Part shown: positions 15,553 through 33,545 of the stretch, in pieces
Layout: each line of letters begins with the position of its first letter
Position numbering within the stretch: position 1 is the stretch's first letter
Source: a bacterium
Lineage (GTDB): Bacteria > Patescibacteriota > Minisyncoccia > Minisyncoccales > GWA2-46-15
Direction of reading: 5' to 3'
Assembly: GCA_030704795.1 (NCBI GenBank)
Contig: JAUYCZ010000028.1
Span: 147,202-183,621, forward strand
Length of the DNA: 36,420 nucleotides
Notes under the pieces: generated by a model
The model's input: the letters and a program-made list of their open reading frames with translations, nothing else
What the model was told of the DNA's origin: nothing
Database searches by the model: none
Translations under genes and position numbers: made by a program

Positions 15553-16152
15553 ATGGAAGAGTCAGAGAAACCACTCTCAAAAAGAATCGGCCAGCCTGAT
15601 TATGTCAATGAAAACTGCTGGCTGGCCATGACTCTGGGCTATCCCCCAGCCAAACGCTGTTGGTATTGTGAATTAAAATTCCGCCACTGCCCCTTCACTC
15701 AATATCTGGGAATGAGCCTCGTTCTAACCCTGGCTTCTTTTAGCATTCTCTATCTCTCCAGCGGAAAAATCACCCGAGCGGACGTTTTCGTTGTCTTTGT
15801 ACTGGTTCTTTCCTATGGTTATTTCAGCACGATAAGCACGGAAAAAATCATTGAAGCTAATTTTGCCGAGAGAAAAATCCGGATTGCCCTGGAAAAAACC
15901 AAGTCTTCCTTAGAAGACAACGTCGCTCAGAGAACTAAGGAATTGCGGGAAATGACCCAAACCCTCGAACAACAGGTAAAAGACAGGACTAAAGAACTCC
16001 AAGAAAAAGTGGAAGAATCAGAAAGAATCAACAGATTGGCGGTGGGCCGTGAATTAAGAATGATCGAACTCAAGGAAAAAATCAAGAAATTAGAGCAAAA
16101 TTTATCTGATGAACAACAAAAAAATCAAAGGTCGAAAATCTCTATAGATTAA
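15553..16152 (+). CDS. Membrane protein with Cys-rich head and long coiled coil, resembling a sensor without a kinase
   Basis: In 199 residues this protein has a cytoplasmic-looking head with Cys22, CWYC and a further Cys (CWYCELKFRHCPF, about residues 36-48), two membrane helices (about 52-70 and 76-95), then a coiled coil to the end containing two related AQRTKELREM/KDRTKELQEK repeats. The same arrangement is found at the front of CPR histidine kinases, but no HisKA, HATPase or output domain follows: the stop is at 16152. It may be a dimerising signalling partner or a shortened kinase. Confidence 0.65.
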   Translation: MEESEKPLSKRIGQPDYVNENCWLAMTLGYPPAKRCWYCELKFRHCPFTQYLGMSLVLTLASFSILYLSSGKITRADVFVVFVLVLSYGYFSTISTEKIIEANFAERKIRIALEKTKSSLEDNVAQRTKELREMTQTLEQQVKDRTKELQEKVEESERINRLAVGRELRMIELKEKIKKLEQNLSDEQQKNQRSKISID

Positions 16153-26077: not shown

Positions 26078-26106
26078 TTGACATTTATTAAAAATGTGGT
26101 AGTATT
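26078..26106 (+). promoter_or_regulatory. Strong sigma-70-type promoter of the GC-rich HbpS-like gene
   Basis: A perfect TTGACA at 26078-26083 is followed by AGTATT at 26101-26106 (17-base spacer) or TAGTAT one base earlier. It is the best -35 element noticed in the window. Transcription would begin near 26112 and give a leader of about 50 bases. Confidence 0.65.
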
Positions 26107-26123
26107 TGGCCAGTATCCAATCC

Positions 26124-26143
26124 GCGCCTTTGGGCTAAGGCGC
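26124..26143 (+). promoter_or_regulatory. Leader hairpin upstream of the HbpS-like gene
   Basis: Seven-base arms GCGCCTT / AAGGCGC with a 6-base loop lie in the 5' leader, ending 9 bases before the ribosome binding site AAGGAGG (26153-26159). The hairpin may protect the mRNA or control translation. Confidence 0.5.
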
Positions 26144-26164
26144 ATCACAACTAAGGAGGATTCA

Positions 26165-26983
26165 ATGGGAACTTTGAAAATTCTCACCAGTACGGAGGCG
26201 TGGCGGATCGCCTCAAGCATCCGCAACTCCCTGCTCGACGCCAGGCTCCAAGCCAACATCTGCGTCGTCAACCGGGACGGTCGCCCGCTCTGCGAAATCA
26301 CGATGGACGAAACGCGCCCCTTTACCGCCACGCTCGCTTTCCACAAAGCGCAGCAGGCGACTCTCGTCGGTCGCCGCACGCGCTGGATCCGCGACCAGGT
26401 CGCCGACGGCGAAATTGGTCTCGACGCTCTGGGCATTGACCCCGCCAAGTTCGTCAGATGGGCGGGCGGCGTGCCCATCTACGATAGCCAGGGTACCCTG
26501 CTCGGCGGCGCCGGCGTTAGTAACTTATCGGAAGAGCAGGATGAAGCGTTCTGCGCCGCCGGCGTCGAGGCGTGCCGCTACGCTTCGGACCGCGATCAGC
26601 CGTCGCCCGATGGCAATCCCGAAGGCGTCATCACCGCGCATCACACCGCTTTTGGTCTACCCCACCGCGAAATGGTGGAGCGTTTCGTGGAAATACTGCA
26701 GAAACGCGGCGCCATCATCGTCAGCAGCGACGATGTGAAATGCAAGTACTTTCTCCGGATCAACCCCTGGGACGAGGCGCTGCTGGAAGTCTTCCTGGAA
26801 GACAACCGCGGCACCAGCGTCCACGTAGACTATGCGGTCGAAAGCCTGGGCGTGGTCAAGCAAGTCCACGCTGTCGCCGACGACCTCTTGGACGTCGGGT
26901 TGCCGAACATGGTCTTCCTCATCGCCGCCAAGGAAACCGCCGACGGACCCGTCACCGCCGAAATCGCTTTCAGCCAGCGCTAG
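26165..26983 (+). CDS. GlcG/HbpS-like heme-binding domain protein with unknown C-terminal domain
   Basis: Residues 1-145 resemble the GlcG/HbpS (Haem_degrading) family: an ICVVNRDGRPLCEITMD strand pair, AFHKAQQATL helix, and GGVPIYDSQGTLLGGAGVSN followed by EEQDEAFCAAGVEA. Residues 150-272 form a second alpha/beta domain I cannot place. The start at ATG 26165 follows a perfect AAGGAGG. Base and codon use differ sharply from neighbours: very GC-rich, with many CGC, GCC and GTC codons. The gene has its own promoter, leader hairpin and terminator, and is opposite in strand to its neighbours, all suggesting acquisition as a unit. Confidence 0.8.
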   Translation: MGTLKILTSTEAWRIASSIRNSLLDARLQANICVVNRDGRPLCEITMDETRPFTATLAFHKAQQATLVGRRTRWIRDQVADGEIGLDALGIDPAKFVRWAGGVPIYDSQGTLLGGAGVSNLSEEQDEAFCAAGVEACRYASDRDQPSPDGNPEGVITAHHTAFGLPHREMVERFVEILQKRGAIIVSSDDVKCKYFLRINPWDEALLEVFLEDNRGTSVHVDYAVESLGVVKQVHAVADDLLDVGLPNMVFLIAAKETADGPVTAEIAFSQR

Positions 26984-27067: not shown

Positions 27068-29083
27068 TTAAAAACTGAGTTCGTTCACTTTCGTCCAGTC
27101 GAGTTCGTTTAAAACCACGATTTTGCTGTCGCCAATGAGGTAGAGATAGTCATCGAGATAGATAGCCCGGCGGACCGAAGTCTCGCTGACGGCTCTTTTC
27201 ATCTCCAGCCGTTGGCCTTTGTAGGAAAAAATATAAGCGCCCTGACCGCCCGGCAAGAAGAAGATCTCGTGCTTTTTATCCAGGAGAAAAGCGTGGTGAG
27301 TCGAAAGGACTTCCGACCAGCCTTCGTTCAAAATGTATTTGTCCAACTCTCGGGGATTCTGAGCCGAACTGACGTCAAAAAGAGAAATCTTGACTTGCCC
27401 GCCTTCCTGGCCGATCCCCAAAACCAAGTCTTTGTCGATCGGTTCCAGATAAGAGGAATAACCCGGGATTTTTAGCTCGCCTTTCATTTGAGGATTCCTC
27501 GGATCAGATAAATCCAAAACATAGAAAGGATCAGTTTGCCGGAAAGTGACCAAATAGCCCCTCTCTCCGACAAATCGGGCCGAGTAAATTCTCTCTGTCA
27601 GACCCAAGTTTAAGACTTGGCCAACCGTCTTTAAATTCTTGTCTAAGACATAGACGTCGTTGGCCGATTCCGGCTGGCTGCCGCCGAAGCCCCAACCCCA
27701 CCAGCCCTGGCCCACGGTCGTGGCGAGCCGTAGATTATCTTGATATTCATCTAAAGAAAATTGATTCAGGGGCTGGCCGGGCACGCTGCCCGAAGCCAGA
27801 ACCGTAAAAGAATCTAAGCCGATTTTAACAATGCCCGTCTTCTGCAAATCCCGGAGATGAGCCTTTAAATAGTCTGTCATCCGGTTATTTAGCTCGTTTC
27901 CTAGTTTTAAACTTTCGTCGTCCGACAAAGAACTCTGATATTTCTGCAGAATTAACTGCAGCTCCATCATCTTGGCCTGCTGGCTGAGGTCATAGCCGGC
28001 TAGCTTTTCCATTTTATCCATAACCCAACTGGGGAAAAGATCTCGGGAGTTTTCCTTGACGAAGTTAAGGAAAAACTGGGTCGTGTCTTCGTAATAGGAA
28101 TAGGCCAGATAAACAGCCTGGTTCGACATATAGACGACCGAGTTTCCCGAGGAGCTGACAAAAGAGATGTTCTTTTCGACCCGACCAGAAGCCGGATCCA
28201 AAATCATGGCCGTTGAGGTCGTATCAACCGGCAGAGGGCTGACGGGGTGATAAATGTCCGTGCAACGAATGCTCAAGGGGCTGTCTCCTCCTTTTAATAT
28301 TTCAATCGGACAGGGATTGGCATCGTTGATGGCGGTCTGGGTGACCAAGTAAATCTTGTCGCCTTTCAGGCGGGCGGCCACTAGCCAGACATTATTTTCC
28401 AGCTCTAAGCTCCATTTCTTTTCGGGCTTCTTGGAATCCGAGACGTCGTAACCCAGGATTTCCTGGCCCGAAAAGATGATCAACCTATTCTTGACCAGCA
28501 AAAGGTTGCCGGCTTTATCAATCTGGCTGTCTTTGGTTAAATCAGCCGGCGGAAAAGCTCTGATCAAATTGGTTCTGTTTTGATACTCCGGAGCGATCAT
28601 TTTTTGCTCCCCACCCCACCAGCCATAGCCTTCTTTCGAAAAATAGATTTCTCGGCCATCGGTTTTGACAATATCTGGTTCATCGATGCCCGCCACCTGA
28701 ACCGTGGTTTCAGAGACCCTTTCCGGACCGCCTCCGGCTTTGGCCTGAGGCGAAAACACTTCTTCGCGCAGAGCAAAATCTGCTTCACCGCCGAAACCGC
28801 CCGGGTAATTAGTTATCTCTCTGCCCTTGGCTAGATAATCTTTAAAATCGGCTTCGGAAACAAACTTCTTGACGTCTCGGGCCGCGGAAGTCGCCGGCAA
28901 GAAAGGAATTTTTGGTAAGGAAATGCGTGGGAGTTTCGAACGGAACTCGGAAAAAGAAAAATTCAGCTGGGGCAAAATATCTTGCGACTCAAGCCAAACC
29001 AGCCCGAGAACCAGGGAAAAGGTGGCCAGCAGAACCAAAGCTACTACCCGGCCGTTCAAATCTCTTTGAAAAAAATTATTCAT
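27068..29083 (-). CDS. Membrane-anchored beta-propeller domain protein
   Basis: A 671-residue protein with an N-terminal signal anchor (about residues 11-29). The segment VSETTVQVAGIDEPDIVKTD begins the domain known as Beta_propel (PF09826), an uncharacterised exported propeller, and the repeats continue to the C-terminus (YLVTFRQTDPFYVLDLSDPR, AIYLDDYLYLIGDSKIVVL). A helical insertion lies near residues 330-410. The start overlaps the 29076-29708 gene by eight bases, so it is co-translated with the surface-protein genes upstream. A binding or scaffolding role outside the cell is likely. Confidence 0.88.
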   Translation of the reverse strand: MNNFFQRDLNGRVVALVLLATFSLVLGLVWLESQDILPQLNFSFSEFRSKLPRISLPKIPFLPATSAARDVKKFVSEADFKDYLAKGREITNYPGGFGGEADFALREEVFSPQAKAGGGPERVSETTVQVAGIDEPDIVKTDGREIYFSKEGYGWWGGEQKMIAPEYQNRTNLIRAFPPADLTKDSQIDKAGNLLLVKNRLIIFSGQEILGYDVSDSKKPEKKWSLELENNVWLVAARLKGDKIYLVTQTAINDANPCPIEILKGGDSPLSIRCTDIYHPVSPLPVDTTSTAMILDPASGRVEKNISFVSSSGNSVVYMSNQAVYLAYSYYEDTTQFFLNFVKENSRDLFPSWVMDKMEKLAGYDLSQQAKMMELQLILQKYQSSLSDDESLKLGNELNNRMTDYLKAHLRDLQKTGIVKIGLDSFTVLASGSVPGQPLNQFSLDEYQDNLRLATTVGQGWWGWGFGGSQPESANDVYVLDKNLKTVGQVLNLGLTERIYSARFVGERGYLVTFRQTDPFYVLDLSDPRNPQMKGELKIPGYSSYLEPIDKDLVLGIGQEGGQVKISLFDVSSAQNPRELDKYILNEGWSEVLSTHHAFLLDKKHEIFFLPGGQGAYIFSYKGQRLEMKRAVSETSVRRAIYLDDYLYLIGDSKIVVLNELDWTKVNELSF

Positions 29084-29708
29084 GTTTTTTCCTTTTAATA
29101 TTGACTTGGAAACTAAATAATTTGCCGAGCAAAACCGCTAGAAAGGCGAAAGCCACTATTAGTATAATAACATATGTCCAGGGAGAATAACGATTCAAAA
29201 AGGAAGAAAAACGGTAATAGATTCCCTGAAAAATGTTGGCTGGTACCACCCTGAAATGAAGTTCGCTGGCCGCGGCGATGCCAAAGGTCGTGCCTGATTC
29301 TTGTTTTAAAATGGGTTTGGCCTCGATGTAGGCGAAATAATCTCCGGGCTTGATTTTCAAGGGCAGTTCCAATTGCAGGGACACGTTTTTCAGCTCTCCT
29401 CCGGCCAGCTTGAACGAAGAGGGAGAAAACCCGAGCCAAGCCGGGTCGGGCCTCTCCTGCGGCTGGTCTTGGTGATAGGCCAGGCTGACCTGGAACTCGC
29501 CTTCGGTATCGCCGGTATTGATCACTCCGATCGTCGGCAGATCATAAGTTGCCCCGGGTTTTAGCAGTTCATCGACGACGATCCGACCGAAGTTGAGGCC
29601 AACGCCGACCCCGGCAAAAGAAACTGTCGGTCCAAACAGAGAGATAAAAACCAGCGTCCAAACAAAAAATGCTGGGAATTCCCTGAAAAAATTCCTTTGG
29701 TTAGACAT
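29076..29708 (-). CDS. DUF916-like Ig-fold surface protein with C-terminal membrane helix
   Basis: The 210-residue protein has a signal peptide (cleavage near residue 32), an Ig-like beta domain (residues 35-155), and one membrane helix (about 175-197) with a basic tail, RKKHE. The beta domain pattern (FGRIVVDELLKPGATYDLP, VINTGDTEGEFQVSL, IKPGDYFAYIEAKP) resembles the DUF916 domain of WxL-locus surface proteins in Firmicutes. This likeness is judged by eye only. It is followed by the beta-propeller gene and preceded 20 bases by a secreted beta-rich protein. Confidence 0.7.
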   Translation of the reverse strand: MSNQRNFFREFPAFFVWTLVFISLFGPTVSFAGVGVGLNFGRIVVDELLKPGATYDLPTIGVINTGDTEGEFQVSLAYHQDQPQERPDPAWLGFSPSSFKLAGGELKNVSLQLELPLKIKPGDYFAYIEAKPILKQESGTTFGIAAASELHFRVVPANIFQGIYYRFSSFLNRYSPWTYVIILIVAFAFLAVLLGKLFSFQVNIKRKKHE

Positions 29709-29728
29709 AGTTCAGAGGGACCAACCAG

Positions 29729-30286
29729 CTACTGCCCGGCCCAAACCGCGGCAATGGTCACGTTGGTCGAGTAAGCCTTGCCCAAAGCAGTTTCAGTTCC
29801 GGCTGTCGTCGGCGTGTAGAACTTCAAGACAAAACTGGTGGCTGCCCCCGGCGTCACGTTGCTCGCCAAAGTCTGGTTGGCCGCAGCTAGATTAGTCTCA
29901 GCGCCGCCGGCTGGGGTAAAAGTATAGCGGTAACTATCTACCCCCGGCGCACTGGACAGCGCCCAATTACAATTATCCTGAGCCGCCGTGCTGGCGCATT
30001 TTGTCGCCTCTCCGGTCGCCTCGACATAAGTCGCGTCAGACCCCTTAATCAGAAAATTCTCATTGACATTGCCGTTGTTGGTGACGACAAGCGAGCTCGA
30101 TGACTTGGCCGACCCCAAGGGCATGGCACCGTAATCGTAAGATGCCGCACTGACCGTCACCGAAATCGTACCGGGAGTAACGGTGACCAGTAAAGAAGTT
30201 GACTCGGCGGCCTGGATGACAGCGGAGACGACTACTCCGGCTAAAATTGAACTAGCGACAATGGTTAAAAAAGATTTTTTTGACAT
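29729..30286 (-). CDS. Secreted Thr/Ser/Ala-rich beta-sandwich protein
   Basis: The 185-residue protein has a signal peptide (MSKKSFLTIVASSILAG, cleavage near residue 27) and an Ala/Thr/Ser-rich beta domain with YDYGAMPLGSAKSSSSLVVT and NNGNVNENFLIKG. Two cysteines (CASTAAQDNC) may form a small disulfide loop. The C-terminus ends YSTNVTIAAVW, somewhat like the ending of WxL domains, and the overall style also recalls TasA/camelysin-like surface proteins. Neither family is certain. A TM helix after the signal is absent, so it is probably released or held by partners. Confidence 0.7.
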   Translation of the reverse strand: MSKKSFLTIVASSILAGVVVSAVIQAAESTSLLVTVTPGTISVTVSAASYDYGAMPLGSAKSSSSLVVTNNGNVNENFLIKGSDATYVEATGEATKCASTAAQDNCNWALSSAPGVDSYRYTFTPAGGAETNLAAANQTLASNVTPGAATSFVLKFYTPTTAGTETALGKAYSTNVTIAAVWAGQ

Positions 30287-30401
30287 TTCTTTTCCTTGTA
30301 AAATATTTTACGACCTTTCTATCCCTCCCTCTTAGTGACAATAGCTAATTTTATCGACAGTCAGACGCCGCGTCAAGCCCTGTTTTCCGATTTCAACGAA
30401 C

Positions 30402-31256
30402 TTAATCGATTTGGTTTAATTCTTTCAAAAGCTGGATGACTTTGGCCAACTGATCGGCCATCTCCTGGAGCATCTTAATCACCTGGCTCAAGTCTTTACC
30501 CGGCGGCACGACGCTACCGGTAATGGTAAAAGCATTGTCGCTCTCGTCCCAGCTCATTGATGGGGCCGGCCAGATCTGCGTTGTCGGCAGAGACCCGCCT
30601 TCCTGTTCGTATTTGTAAAGCGGTATGATATTCCGGCCCACGCTCACCCGGATGACATAGTCTGAACCGTTGGCGATGTCATTGCTGACCTTCCAGGAAT
30701 AAGAACCGTCAAAGAGATTGACCATAGCCAGATGTTTGACAAAAGTCGGCATCGGATAAAGCAGAGGACAAATTTTCTGTCCGTCAGGTCCGGTCTGGCA
30801 TTTTATTTCAGATTTTCTGAATAAATCAATTGAGGCTTTCGTCCAAAATGGCCTGGGTATGCTTTTCGTTTCCGTTTCCGCCACCGGCGAAATACCAACC
30901 GCGTTCCATTTAATCGTTTGAATCTGTCCCCGATCCCAAGTTTCCCCACCATTCGGAGAAACAACCGTTATCTGGTAATCGACCGGAAAAATGCACTTTT
31001 CTGTGTCGTCGTCGACTATCCCGGTCTGGAGCAGACCGCACTTGGCCTGGACCTTAGTCACGGCTTTTTTGGTCGCTTGACCAAAATAACCGGTGACCAA
31101 GCCCTCGGGATAAAGGGATTTATCGGTTTTTAGAACTTCCTGAATGGCTTTGACTTCGTCGCTTCTAGACCCAAGAGAAATCGCTTTTTCGCTCTGCGCC
31201 GCGGCCGCCCCGGCCAAAAGCAGAGAGAAAAGGGAAACCATTAAGATTTTTTTCAT
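30402..31256 (-). CDS. Secreted peptidoglycan-binding-domain protein with KRE9/KNH-like domain
   Basis: A signal peptide (MKKILMVSLFSLLLAGAAA) is followed by a PG_binding_1 domain (residues 25-88: LGSRSDEVKAIQEVLKTD, YFGQATKKAVTKVQAKCGL). Residues 95-255 begin VVSPNGGETWDRGQ, the opening of the KRE9/KNH-type beta domain frequent in CPR surface proteins. A short helical tail follows (VIKMLQEMADQLAKVIQLLK). The protein has 284 residues. It would anchor to the wall and present its beta domain. It is 184 bases downstream of the anti-sigma gene, separated by a palindrome cluster. Confidence 0.88.
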   Translation of the reverse strand: MKKILMVSLFSLLLAGAAAAQSEKAISLGSRSDEVKAIQEVLKTDKSLYPEGLVTGYFGQATKKAVTKVQAKCGLLQTGIVDDDTEKCIFPVDYQITVVSPNGGETWDRGQIQTIKWNAVGISPVAETETKSIPRPFWTKASIDLFRKSEIKCQTGPDGQKICPLLYPMPTFVKHLAMVNLFDGSYSWKVSNDIANGSDYVIRVSVGRNIIPLYKYEQEGGSLPTTQIWPAPSMSWDESDNAFTITGSVVPPGKDLSQVIKMLQEMADQLAKVIQLLKELNQID

Positions 31257-31351
31257 GATCGCTATAATTAATTCTTAGTATCAACTTTTTATCAACCGTC
31301 TAAAACAAAACGTTTTCGTCTCAATAAGGTTGCGCCTTTTTTCAACGGCTA

Positions 31352-31451
31352 ATTATTTGGTATACCCCGCGGCTCCGTCCGCGGGGAACCAAATAATGAG
31401 GATTCCAAAGGAGGCTACTCCTTTGGTCGCCCCGCGGGGTTTAAGGCCCCG
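31352..31451. repeat. Cluster of nested palindromes after the anti-sigma gene
   Basis: Three hairpins lie in 100 bases. The first pairs ATTATTTGG with CCAAATAAT around an inner CCCCGCGG/CCGCGGGG stem (31352-31397). The second is CCAAAGGA/TCCTTTGG (31405-31426). The third involves CCCCGCGGGG and GGCCCCGCGGG (31430-31455), reaching the stop codon of the minus-strand gene. It could terminate the sigma/anti-sigma transcript or be a mobile palindromic element. Confidence 0.65.
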
Positions 31452-32007
31452 CGGGTGAAATACCTTTAAAAATATTGTAATTTACTTTTCGGACGCTCGT
31501 CACTTTGTTTTCCTTGAAATCAACATCGACTGAAAAAGTGGTAAATGTAACGGCTTCTTTTGATGGTTTGCTAAAAAATTGCTGATTCTCAGCCGGGAGA
31601 GAATCGGCCGGTCTTTCGATTTTTTCAGTCTTGGCAACGCCCCTGCTTGACCGAGTAACCGGCTTGATCAACAAAAGACGGGCCCTCCCCTGAACAATCT
31701 GAATATCCTGGATAATACCGCCTTCTTCTATTAGGGCTCGCACCTCGGGGCTTCGCAGGGCAATCTCCTTGGCCAAAGCCAGACTCGGCTGGGAAAAGAA
31801 CGAAGCATTCAAAATCGCTGCCAATAAAATCGCAAAGGCGAAACCGCCAGCCAAGACCGGCCGCAAAAACGCGAAAACCTCTCCCCTCTTTTGTTCAACA
31901 GAGTATCGGCTCATCAAAAACAGGCGCAATTTATGCTTGTGGCCCAAAAGCTCAACTTCGGGAAGCTCTATTCTCTCTAATTTTTTAATTAAATCTTCTT
32001 CTCTCAT
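31441..32007 (-). CDS. Probable membrane anti-sigma factor
   Basis: The 188-residue protein has an N-terminal cytoplasmic part of about 45 residues (MREEDLIKKLERIELPEVEL), one membrane helix (about 51-68) and an outside domain. This layout, plus its position 14 bases after the ECF sigma gene, fits an anti-sigma factor. There is no ZAS zinc motif (HxxxCxxC), so it would be a non-zinc type. The outer region starts with SLALAKEIALRSPEVRALIE, a pattern seen in other CPR proteins beside sigma genes. The call is from context. Confidence 0.65.
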   Translation of the reverse strand: MREEDLIKKLERIELPEVELLGHKHKLRLFLMSRYSVEQKRGEVFAFLRPVLAGGFAFAILLAAILNASFFSQPSLALAKEIALRSPEVRALIEEGGIIQDIQIVQGRARLLLIKPVTRSSRGVAKTEKIERPADSLPAENQQFFSKPSKEAVTFTTFSVDVDFKENKVTSVRKVNYNIFKGISPAGP

Positions 32008-32021
32008 TTAAACAAAACGCT

Positions 32022-32597
32022 TTAATGGCTCAATGGTGGCAGATCTCTTCTCAGTCTTTCGATGCCCCGATGAATCAAAGATTTTATCGTCCCCTCTCTT
32101 TTTCCCAGAATTTCGGCGATCTCTTTAATCTGCTTTTTCTCAAAAAATCTCAGAGTCAAAACTTCCTGGTATTTCTCGGGCAAGGTCATGATTTCTTTCT
32201 GAACCATCAAGAAATCCTGATGCCGGGCTAGTTTTTCCTGAGCTCGAGCAATTTCTTCCAAGATGTTTTGGTCAGACGAAGGATCCGAGATAATTTCCAG
32301 GGAAACGGTCGGTTTTTTCCGGCGCCAGAAATTGACGATTTCGTTGGCGGCGATACGGTAAAGCCAGGCCCCGAAAGAAGAGTTGCTCCGGAAAGCTCCG
32401 ATCCATTTAAAACGCCGGAGATTTTTGAGGGCCTTGAGAAAAGTTTCGGAAACCACGTCTTGGGCCATCTCCAGATTAGCCGTTCTCCTCAAGACATAGC
32501 CAAAGATTCGAGGGTAATATTCATCATAAAGCCGGCCGAAAGCTTCGGGATCTTTTTTAGCTTTTTTAACCAGCTTTTTCTCTTCATCCAGAGTCAT
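32022..32597 (-). CDS. ECF-family RNA polymerase sigma factor
   Basis: The 191-residue protein has sigma region 2 (FGRLYDEYYPRIFGYVLRRT, AQDVVSETFLKAL, FGAWLYRIAANEIVNFWRRK) and region 4 (LPEKYQEVLTLRFFEKKQIK, REGTIKSLIHRGIERLRRDL). ATG 32597 is chosen because GAGG lies six bases upstream and the conserved part starts right after. The frame continues upstream to 32669, but that part overlaps the ATP-cone gene. It should direct transcription of an envelope or stress regulon; the exported proteins downstream are candidates. No matching promoter motif was identified. Confidence 0.93.
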   Translation of the reverse strand: MTLDEEKKLVKKAKKDPEAFGRLYDEYYPRIFGYVLRRTANLEMAQDVVSETFLKALKNLRRFKWIGAFRSNSSFGAWLYRIAANEIVNFWRRKKPTVSLEIISDPSSDQNILEEIARAQEKLARHQDFLMVQKEIMTLPEKYQEVLTLRFFEKKQIKEIAEILGKREGTIKSLIHRGIERLRRDLPPLSH

Positions 32598-32610
32598 TCT
32601 AAGCCTCGAT

Positions 32611-32892
32611 CTAGCCAGCCCTCTGCTCTTTCTTGTATTCTCTCCAAGCGGCAGAAGCGGCGGGCTCAACCACGTCCAGTTCGCTGAGAATCTTGTCTCT
32701 TATCGCCAGGGTCGGAATCTCTTCTCTTCCCTCGGCGGATTGAAGAACCTTGGCTAAAACTTCTTCGACGACGACCACGGTTCTTTCTTCGGAAAGATTG
32801 GCTTTACGGGTGGCGGCGCGAATGCCTTTTTTAATTTTCTCCGGGTCAAAAGACTCTTTTGTCCCGTCTCTTTTAACGACGAATTTAATCAT
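32611..32892 (-). CDS. Stand-alone ATP-cone domain protein
   Basis: The 93-residue protein is an ATP-cone: FVVKRDGTKESFDPEKIKKG, then IRAATRKANL and the AIRDKILSELDVVEPAASAA helix. This nucleotide-sensing domain normally heads ribonucleotide reductases or ends NrdR, but here nothing is attached: no zinc ribbon of NrdR and no reductase. It ends 13 bases before the ECF sigma gene, so nucleotide-dependent regulation of that unit is an attractive but unproven idea. Similar free ATP-cones are known in CPR and archaea. Confidence 0.88.
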   Translation of the reverse strand: MIKFVVKRDGTKESFDPEKIKKGIRAATRKANLSEERTVVVVEEVLAKVLQSAEGREEIPTLAIRDKILSELDVVEPAASAAWREYKKEQRAG

Positions 32893-32913
32893 GATAAATA
32901 AAATTGATCATAA

Positions 32914-32928
32914 CGGGCAGAATGCCCG
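32914..32928. repeat. Short inverted repeat upstream of the ATP-cone gene
   Basis: Arms CGGGCA / TGCCCG with a 3-base loop, 22 bases upstream of the ATP-cone start. It resembles the hairpins at 2883-2901 and 3028-3050. No T-run follows on the minus strand. Confidence 0.45.
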
Positions 32929-32981
32929 ATATATCGTACTCGCTATTAATTGCCGACCTTTACGACTCTCTTTCTCTTACC

Positions 32982-33545
32982 CTACCATGCTTTGCTACCA
33001 AGACAAAACCAACCAATCCGCAAGCCCCTCTTTCCCAGGCGCAGACAAAGAAGAAAGATGCCGGCCAGAAGAAAAATTGAGACGAGAGAAATCTGAACCA
33101 TCTCCTTCTCCAGTAAAGAAGGAGTCTTTAAAAGAAGTAAAGCGGAATAAAAAAGAAAACTCATCTGCAAAGTCATGGAAATCATGTGCCAATAGCCGCC
33201 GGCGTTCCATTTCCAGGGTTCGGGCATTATCCAAACTTTCCATCTCCGGACGGACATAAAAATGTGAGCCGTCACCATCGAAATAAAGCCCGTCAGGAAG
33301 GCCAGCGTCAGATCTTGAACTAAAACCTTAAACCTAAGCTCAAGCAAAAGGTTCAGAGCAATAATATTAATCAGTCCGGCCAAAATCCCGTCCATGACAA
33401 TACCCCAGATATTACAGCCGCCCTGACCGCGGTAACCTTTCCGACCAAACTGGCGGAAATAGATGGCGAAAGGAATCAGCAGGTTGTTGAGCAGCGACAA
33501 ACAAAGAATCAGAATGAAAAAGGGTAATTTTTCCGACAACTCCAT
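32982..33545 (-). CDS. Polytopic membrane protein of unknown function
   Basis: I do not recognise a family. The 187 residues contain about five hydrophobic segments (roughly 8-28, 46-68, 80-98, 120-140, 148-168). Between segments two and four are a Gly-rich stretch (FGRKGYRGQGGCNIWG) and an amphipathic loop with WIMPEPWKWNAGGYWHMIS, rich in Trp. There is no signal peptide or catalytic motif. It lies nine bases after the DUF192 gene and shares its strand with ychF and the sigma genes, so it is probably co-transcribed. Confidence 0.65.
   Translation of the reverse strand: MELSEKLPFFILILCLSLLNNLLIPFAIYFRQFGRKGYRGQGGCNIWGIVMDGILAGLINIIALNLLLELRFKVLVQDLTLAFLTGFISMVTAHIFMSVRRWKVWIMPEPWKWNAGGYWHMISMTLQMSFLFYSALLLLKTPSLLEKEMVQISLVSIFLLAGIFLLCLRLGKRGLRIGWFCLGSKAW

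Follow-up and report, generated by a model that had tools for sequence, protein, structure and literature searches.

A WxL/WxLIP-like pair of exported-protein genes beside an ECF sigma operon in a Patescibacterial genome

The window analyzed here is a stretch of 36,420 nucleotides (nt) from an ultra-small bacterium of the Minisyncoccales lineage GWA2-46-15 in the phylum Patescibacteriota (assembly GCA_030704795.1, contig JAUYCZ010000028.1); its genome, G000, measures 637 kb, and the window lies on the contig that we number C30. Two adjoining genes on the minus strand encode a small β-sandwich protein (hereafter the sandwich protein) and a protein with one immunoglobulin (Ig) domain and a C-terminal transmembrane (TM) helix (the Ig-TM protein). 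The pair looks like a reduced and diverged form of the surface system of Firmicutes that consists of WxL proteins and the WxL-interacting protein (WxLIP). With a probability of about 0.6, we read 29076-30286 as a two-gene WxL/WxLIP-like surface-display cassette, set on a promoter of its own between an operon of extracytoplasmic function (ECF) sigma type and a β-propeller gene. Cultivated Patescibacteria are episymbionts, and, to our knowledge, how members of the phylum display adhesins and enzymes is largely unknown. If the reading is true, surface proteins could be recognized from sequence alone by a C-terminal display domain that has its own membrane partner, and a system described almost only in Bacilli would extend to a distant phylum.

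Linkage of the sandwich and Ig-TM genes

The two genes of the cassette are:

29729-30286, minus strand: small secreted β-sandwich protein; in relatives, large secreted proteins end in the same domain
29076-29708, minus strand: Ig-TM protein, with a signal peptide, one WxLIP_PGBD/PapD-like Ig domain and a C-terminal TM helix

The proteins of both genes have export signals. Of the 60 nearest genomes, 6 were found to have the Ig-TM gene; with a profile of four rows, it turns up in 34 of the 380 genomes searched across the phylum, close members (E < 1e-15) accounting for about 10 of these and distant matches for the rest. A named collection added six loci, all from Patescibacteria (L030 is the same locus as that of genome G034). 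A clear Ig-TM gene is present at 18 distinct loci. At 17 of them, a gene with the sandwich domain is adjacent or lies one or two genes off, the exception being locus L070 of G222. A large secreted protein ending in the sandwich domain is encoded nearby in 11 of these 17. The large proteins are subtilases in L007, L008 and L027 and are similar by sequence in L009 and L028-L031; elsewhere their N-terminal parts are DUF7483, glycine-rich or unknown. Large sandwich-bearing proteins also occur unlinked (L156 in G267, 816 amino acids (aa); L157 in G077, 1476 aa). In relatives, the domain thus either makes up a small protein or closes a large secreted one, and the two forms match at 99.9% in profile comparison, which makes them one family. 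Given this linkage and the single family, the sandwich domain behaves like a module for display or sorting that several proteins share and that has its own membrane partner.

Some of these loci hold further exported proteins. The subtilase-type loci L007-L009, L027-L029 and L031 share a conserved Ig-like exported protein of about 180 aa downstream of the Ig-TM gene, which is absent from the window. A related arrangement occurs at 6392-9446 of L011 (G031), near recombinase-like and phage-like genes; it comprises a 322-aa exported protein, a 284-aa TM protein, a sandwich protein and a second Ig protein.

Relation to WxL and WxLIP proteins

The Ig-TM protein has 210 aa, with a hydrophobic N-terminus or signal peptide and a TM helix at residues 176-208; both ends are conserved in 15 relatives. 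Its structure model has one β-sandwich of about eight strands, with predicted local distance difference test (pLDDT) values of 76-89 in blocks over residues 41-130. This one Ig domain is followed by the TM helix, and the second Ig domain (DUF3324/HBD) that WxLIP has between PGBD and TM helix is missing. Relatedness to WxLIP emerges from profiles. A6, a profile of Patescibacterial two-domain WxLIP-like proteins, matches the solved EfmWxLIP1 of E. faecium at 1e-8 across both domains. Among the open reading frames of the window, A6 finds the Ig-TM protein at 2e-8, with 25.2 bits (best of 1000 shuffles, 6.5); the Ig domain alone gives 22.5 bits (shuffles, at most 1.9). Profile against profile, the window-type Ig-TM family aligns with the WxLIP-like family at 97.7-97.8%, as against 5-48% for family G, the other Ig proteins of the locus, and about 53% or less among other families of the loci. 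Of 19 distant matches of the Ig-TM profile that were scanned, 11 match the WxLIP_PGBD family (PF06030) at E <= 0.01, five of them over the cut-off. These comparisons show the Ig domain to be related, at the level of sequence profiles, to Patescibacterial WxLIP-like proteins.

The sandwich protein of the window has no Pfam match, and its AlphaFold2 model is mostly β but weak (mean pLDDT 60). In an alignment of 26 sandwich sequences, a single W is conserved (that of NWALSS in the window), and the two W-x-L motifs, including the C-terminal one, are missing. The Pfam family WxL (PF13731) has no match in the window's own genome. Direct PDB sequence searches with the Ig-TM and sandwich proteins of the window return nothing useful, and PDB searches with the sandwich profile or with A8, a profile of Patescibacterial WxL-like proteins, return no WxL chain. 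A tblastn search of plasmids with a WxL-like protein, made in order to find true WxL sequences for profile comparison, gives no match.

Several of the results weigh against a WxL/WxLIP-like cassette. The weak sandwich model retrieves no fold at E 0.001 in Foldseek, PF13731 matches none of 19 sandwich members even at E 10, and the sandwich aligns with Patescibacterial WxL-like profiles at only 4-27%. A large sandwich-bearing protein was not found in the window's genome, which has the small form only. Searched directly against Pfam and PDB, the Ig-TM family retrieves generic Ig matches and not WxLIP, and the Foldseek matches of the Ig-TM model, namely PapD-type chaperones plus WxLIP (9i1y and 9i25, at about 2e-4), do not separate WxLIP from PapD-like folds. 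As to the separate promoter, co-transcription from the preceding peptidoglycan-binding gene by read-through across the 115-nt gap is possible.

The same results bear on two other explanations. In the first, the likeness is convergent and one of layout only, the Ig-TM protein being a generic Ig membrane protein of NEW3/fn3 type and the sandwich an unrelated sorting domain. The commonest direct Pfam matches in the Ig-TM family fit this view (fn3_5 in 12 of 16 members and NPCBM_assoc in 8, with WxLIP_PGBD in only 2 and no direct PF06030 match for the window's protein), as does the failure to relate the sandwich to WxL by Pfam scan. The Ig-TM profile, however, retrieves WxLIP-like proteins from whole genomes, and its alignment with their family is much stronger than that of the locus's other Ig family; we consider convergence somewhat unlikely. 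In the second, the sandwich polymerizes by donor-strand exchange into a thin, pilus-like fiber, with the Ig-TM protein as a membrane-held, PapD-like chaperone or assembly factor and the large proteins as tip subunits. The PapD-family chaperones DraB, FaeE and Caf1M indeed match the Ig-TM model, with scores of the same order as those of WxLIP, and the weak structural matches of the sandwich include FimF, FimG and FimA. None of these sandwich matches, however, is better than E 0.04; beside the cassette, neither an usher nor a sortase gene is recognized, and TasA/camelysin or fimbrial Pfam families are not among the matches of the 19 sandwich members. The position of the domain, C-terminal behind enzymes such as subtilases, gives it the look of a display tag. 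PapD-type chaperones also differ in being soluble, periplasmic two-domain proteins of diderms that lack a TM anchor. We hold a pilus of this kind to be quite unlikely.

Likeness to the WxL/WxLIP (DUF916-DUF3324) clusters of Firmicutes is found in three features (PMC10599100, PMC9772566; PDB 9i1y, 9i25): a small protein consisting of the β domain only, large secreted proteins (here those of relatives) that end in this domain, and a neighboring protein with a signal peptide, an Ig domain related by profiles to DUF916 and a C-terminal TM helix. The differences are that the window's sandwich has neither W-x-L motifs nor a WxL sequence match, that its Ig-TM protein has one Ig domain instead of two, that no NQIDK-type motif was seen, that the large partner was not found in its genome, and that the pair is from Patescibacteria instead of Bacilli. 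Firmicutes account for more than 91% of WxL sequences (PMC9772566). Also close to the window's pair are the Patescibacterial PF06030 proteins (e.g., L062, L074, and L085), which also have a signal peptide, a DUF916-type Ig domain and a C-terminal TM helix, and which adjoin secreted β-domain proteins in L071-L074. They differ in that most are about 310-340 aa long and have a further Ig-like part, and in that their partners belong to another β-domain family. Of 143 Patescibacterial genomes sampled, 22 have a PF06030 match above the cut-off. Sub-threshold PF13731 matches occur in five genomes, each time with a PF06030 match no more than 4 kb away; these WxL-like proteins retain a first motif of D-x-R-G...W type and not the second W. 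Judged by such matches, Patescibacteria have more standard WxL/WxLIP forms too. Our search of the open-access literature brought up no paper on WxL in Patescibacteria, its one hit being unrelated, and WxL-type systems in the phylum appear undescribed so far.

We do not class the sandwich and Ig-TM proteins as WxL/WxLIP members, because the sandwich has no WxL sequence support and a weak model, generic Ig models predominate when the Ig-TM family is scanned directly against Pfam, and Foldseek is unable to separate WxLIP from PapD-like folds; yet the pair most likely works like them. The sequence-only reading had proposed a WxL/DUF916-like locus and a structural comparison to check it. Its proposal holds for the locus architecture and for the Ig domain; it does not hold for the sandwich by sequence. 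AlphaFold2 predictions point to a gap in the WxL sandwich into which a hairpin strand of DUF916 fits (PMC10599100; PMC9772566). The PGBD alone is reported to be unstable, and the window's Ig domain by itself may be so too. By analogy, the membrane-anchored Ig domain would hold the sandwich domain at the cell surface, where it may complete the β-sheet of the sandwich with one of its own strands, as is proposed for WxLIP and WxL. Such strand complementation would lead to surface display of proteins that end in the sandwich domain. The window's genome keeps the small member only, and the ECF pair next door would act separately, on the peptidoglycan-binding gene.

Taken more widely, and tentatively, the cassette could belong to a Patescibacterial branch of WxL/WxLIP display, in which the β domain has fully lost its WxL signature, is held by a single membrane-tethered Ig domain through strand complementation, and exposes proteases, along with other domains for binding or degradation, on cells that have to attach to hosts. 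Attachment to wall or host, as the sequence-only reading had it, would be a possible role of the cassette.

The ECF sigma pair and the promoters of the locus

The other features of the locus lie on the same strand:

32022-32597, minus strand: ECF sigma factor with region 2 and region 4 (Pfam Sigma70_r2 4e-16, r4_2 5e-15)
31441-32007, minus strand: membrane anti-sigma-like protein with one hydrophobic segment; directly after the sigma gene in seven relatives
31308-31333, minus strand: ECF-type promoter GCAACCTT-N13/14-CGTT of the peptidoglycan-binding gene; exact match unique in the genome, pattern present in 4 of 4 genomes
30402-31256, minus strand: secreted protein with PG_binding_1 (3e-11) and Kre9_KNH (8e-6)
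30348-30376, minus strand: promoter of the sandwich gene, of sigma-70 type, TTGACG-N17-TAAAAT; G003 has the same hexamers and spacing
30310-30319, minus strand: leader element GAAAGGTCGT, which contains the core octamer AAAGGTCG
27068-29083, minus strand: membrane-anchored PF09826 β-propeller (Pfam 9e-106)

The genes of the locus are real, since the order sigma, anti-sigma, peptidoglycan-binding, sandwich, Ig-TM is kept in the sibling genome G003 up to its contig end and the sandwich protein is 91% identical there. The inventory of the sequence-only reading (sigma, probable anti-sigma, peptidoglycan-binding, sandwich, Ig-fold TM and propeller genes on one strand) is borne out, with the correction that the propeller lies outside the interval 29076-32597 to which it was assigned; all genes within that interval are on the minus strand. 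The start of the propeller gene overlaps the stop of the Ig-TM gene by 8 nt. The propeller gene is a neighbor of the ECF operon in G001, and its membership in the cassette is not shown.

The sigma gene starts with ATG at 32597 or with an upstream TTG that extends it to 32669, and eight relatives have homologs. The anti-sigma-like protein has about 45 cytosolic residues before its hydrophobic segment and matches no family in a Pfam scan. Its C-terminal part is shorter than that of its G003 counterpart; a frameshift was considered as the cause and rejected, the other frames holding no remnant of a longer C-terminus. As in known ECF units with a membrane anti-sigma, the sigma factor consists of regions 2 and 4 only and the one-TM anti-sigma-like protein is adjacent; AAC...CGT promoters precede the sigma or the anti-sigma gene in several relatives. 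The nearest NCBIfam equivalog is the BldN family, below cut-off. Unlike such pairs, the window's sigma gene has no ECF motif upstream, its anti-sigma has no Pfam family, and the only exact promoter match of the genome sits at the peptidoglycan-binding/Kre9 gene.

This exact match, AACCTT-N13-CGTT, occurs once in the whole genome. The looser AAC-N16/17-CGTT lies upstream of the peptidoglycan-binding gene in 4 of 4 genomes, of the anti-sigma gene in 5 of 10 and of the sigma gene in 3 of 9, and upstream of none of 12 sandwich, 6 Ig-TM and 2 propeller genes (shuffle means, 0.04-0.14). These counts are descriptive and not an independent test, the motif having first been spotted on some of the sequences counted; the genome-wide uniqueness is independent of them. 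With one mismatch allowed, the pattern matches relatives' genomes at about background, and no regulon is defined from these matches. The peptidoglycan-binding/Kre9 gene, which adjoins the sigma pair in G001, G003 and G022, is a likely target of the ECF sigma factor through a predicted AACC-N15-CGTT promoter. Of the shared promoter motif that had been suggested for 32597, 31256 and 30286, only the site upstream of 31256 is found.

The sandwich gene has a different promoter. In G003, both hexamers and the spacing of TTGACG-N17-TAAAAT are identical while the spacer sequence differs, and the cassette is probably expressed from this housekeeping-type promoter. An alternative, that a single ECF-switched operon runs from sigma to propeller and induces the sandwich and Ig-TM genes together with the peptidoglycan-binding gene, possibly by read-through, draws on the shared strand, the short gaps, the order kept in G003, the ECF promoter ahead of the peptidoglycan-binding gene and the 8-nt overlap. 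It is unlikely in view of the conserved sigma-70-type promoter of the pair, the lack of an ECF motif at all 12 sandwich genes and the separability of the two units in relatives. The sigma pair occurs without exported sandwich and Ig-TM genes in G001, G002, G009, G024, and G044. In G001, of the same genus, the order is sigma, anti-sigma, peptidoglycan-binding/Kre9, DUF5661, then propeller, and sandwich and Ig-TM genes were not detected anywhere in the genome. Conversely, the cassette occurs without a sigma pair beside it in G022, G026, G034 and others: the sigma, anti-sigma and peptidoglycan-binding genes are on one contig and the cassette on another in G022, the two are about 120 kb apart in G026, and in G034, which has the cassette, an anti-sigma was not detected. 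The claim that the sigma factor switches the exported genes is not supported, and a sigma pair in relatives that lack these genes is an outcome that the sequence-only reading had itself named as refuting. Conservation of gene order, also proposed as a check, is seen in the sibling G003. The sigma/anti-sigma pair appears to be a unit separate from the sandwich/Ig-TM cassette, its neighbor and not part of one unit. On the simplest reading, the cassette was inserted between the peptidoglycan-binding and propeller genes in the G000/G003 lineage, or was lost in G001.

The leader octamer and a neighboring gene

AAAGGTCG is the most enriched 8-mer of the leaders in the fetched loci, where the 20-60 nt zone holds 15 of its 41 occurrences. 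Many genes for exported proteins (among them sandwich, peptidoglycan-binding, anti-sigma and a prepilin) have it ahead of the start codon, mostly by 25-75 nt, and so do ATP-cone genes. Its sites in the window are 30310-30319 (minus), 32954-32961 (minus) and 16127-16134 (plus), and further sites are in L008, L009, L010, L031, L105-L112, L162 and L170-L172. An Rfam scan of 29000-33200 gives no match. Upstream of the anti-sigma gene in L108, L111 and L112, a potential hairpin (e.g., GAGCATCAAAAGATGCTC) lies between the ECF promoter and AAAGGTCG, and the spacer of the ECF promoter contains TCGACC, the reverse complement of the leader's GGTCGA.

Next to the propeller, on the opposite (plus) strand, 26078-26983 encodes an HbpS-like protein of a heme-degrading family; the GC content of this stretch, 0.54, is above that of the rest of the window.

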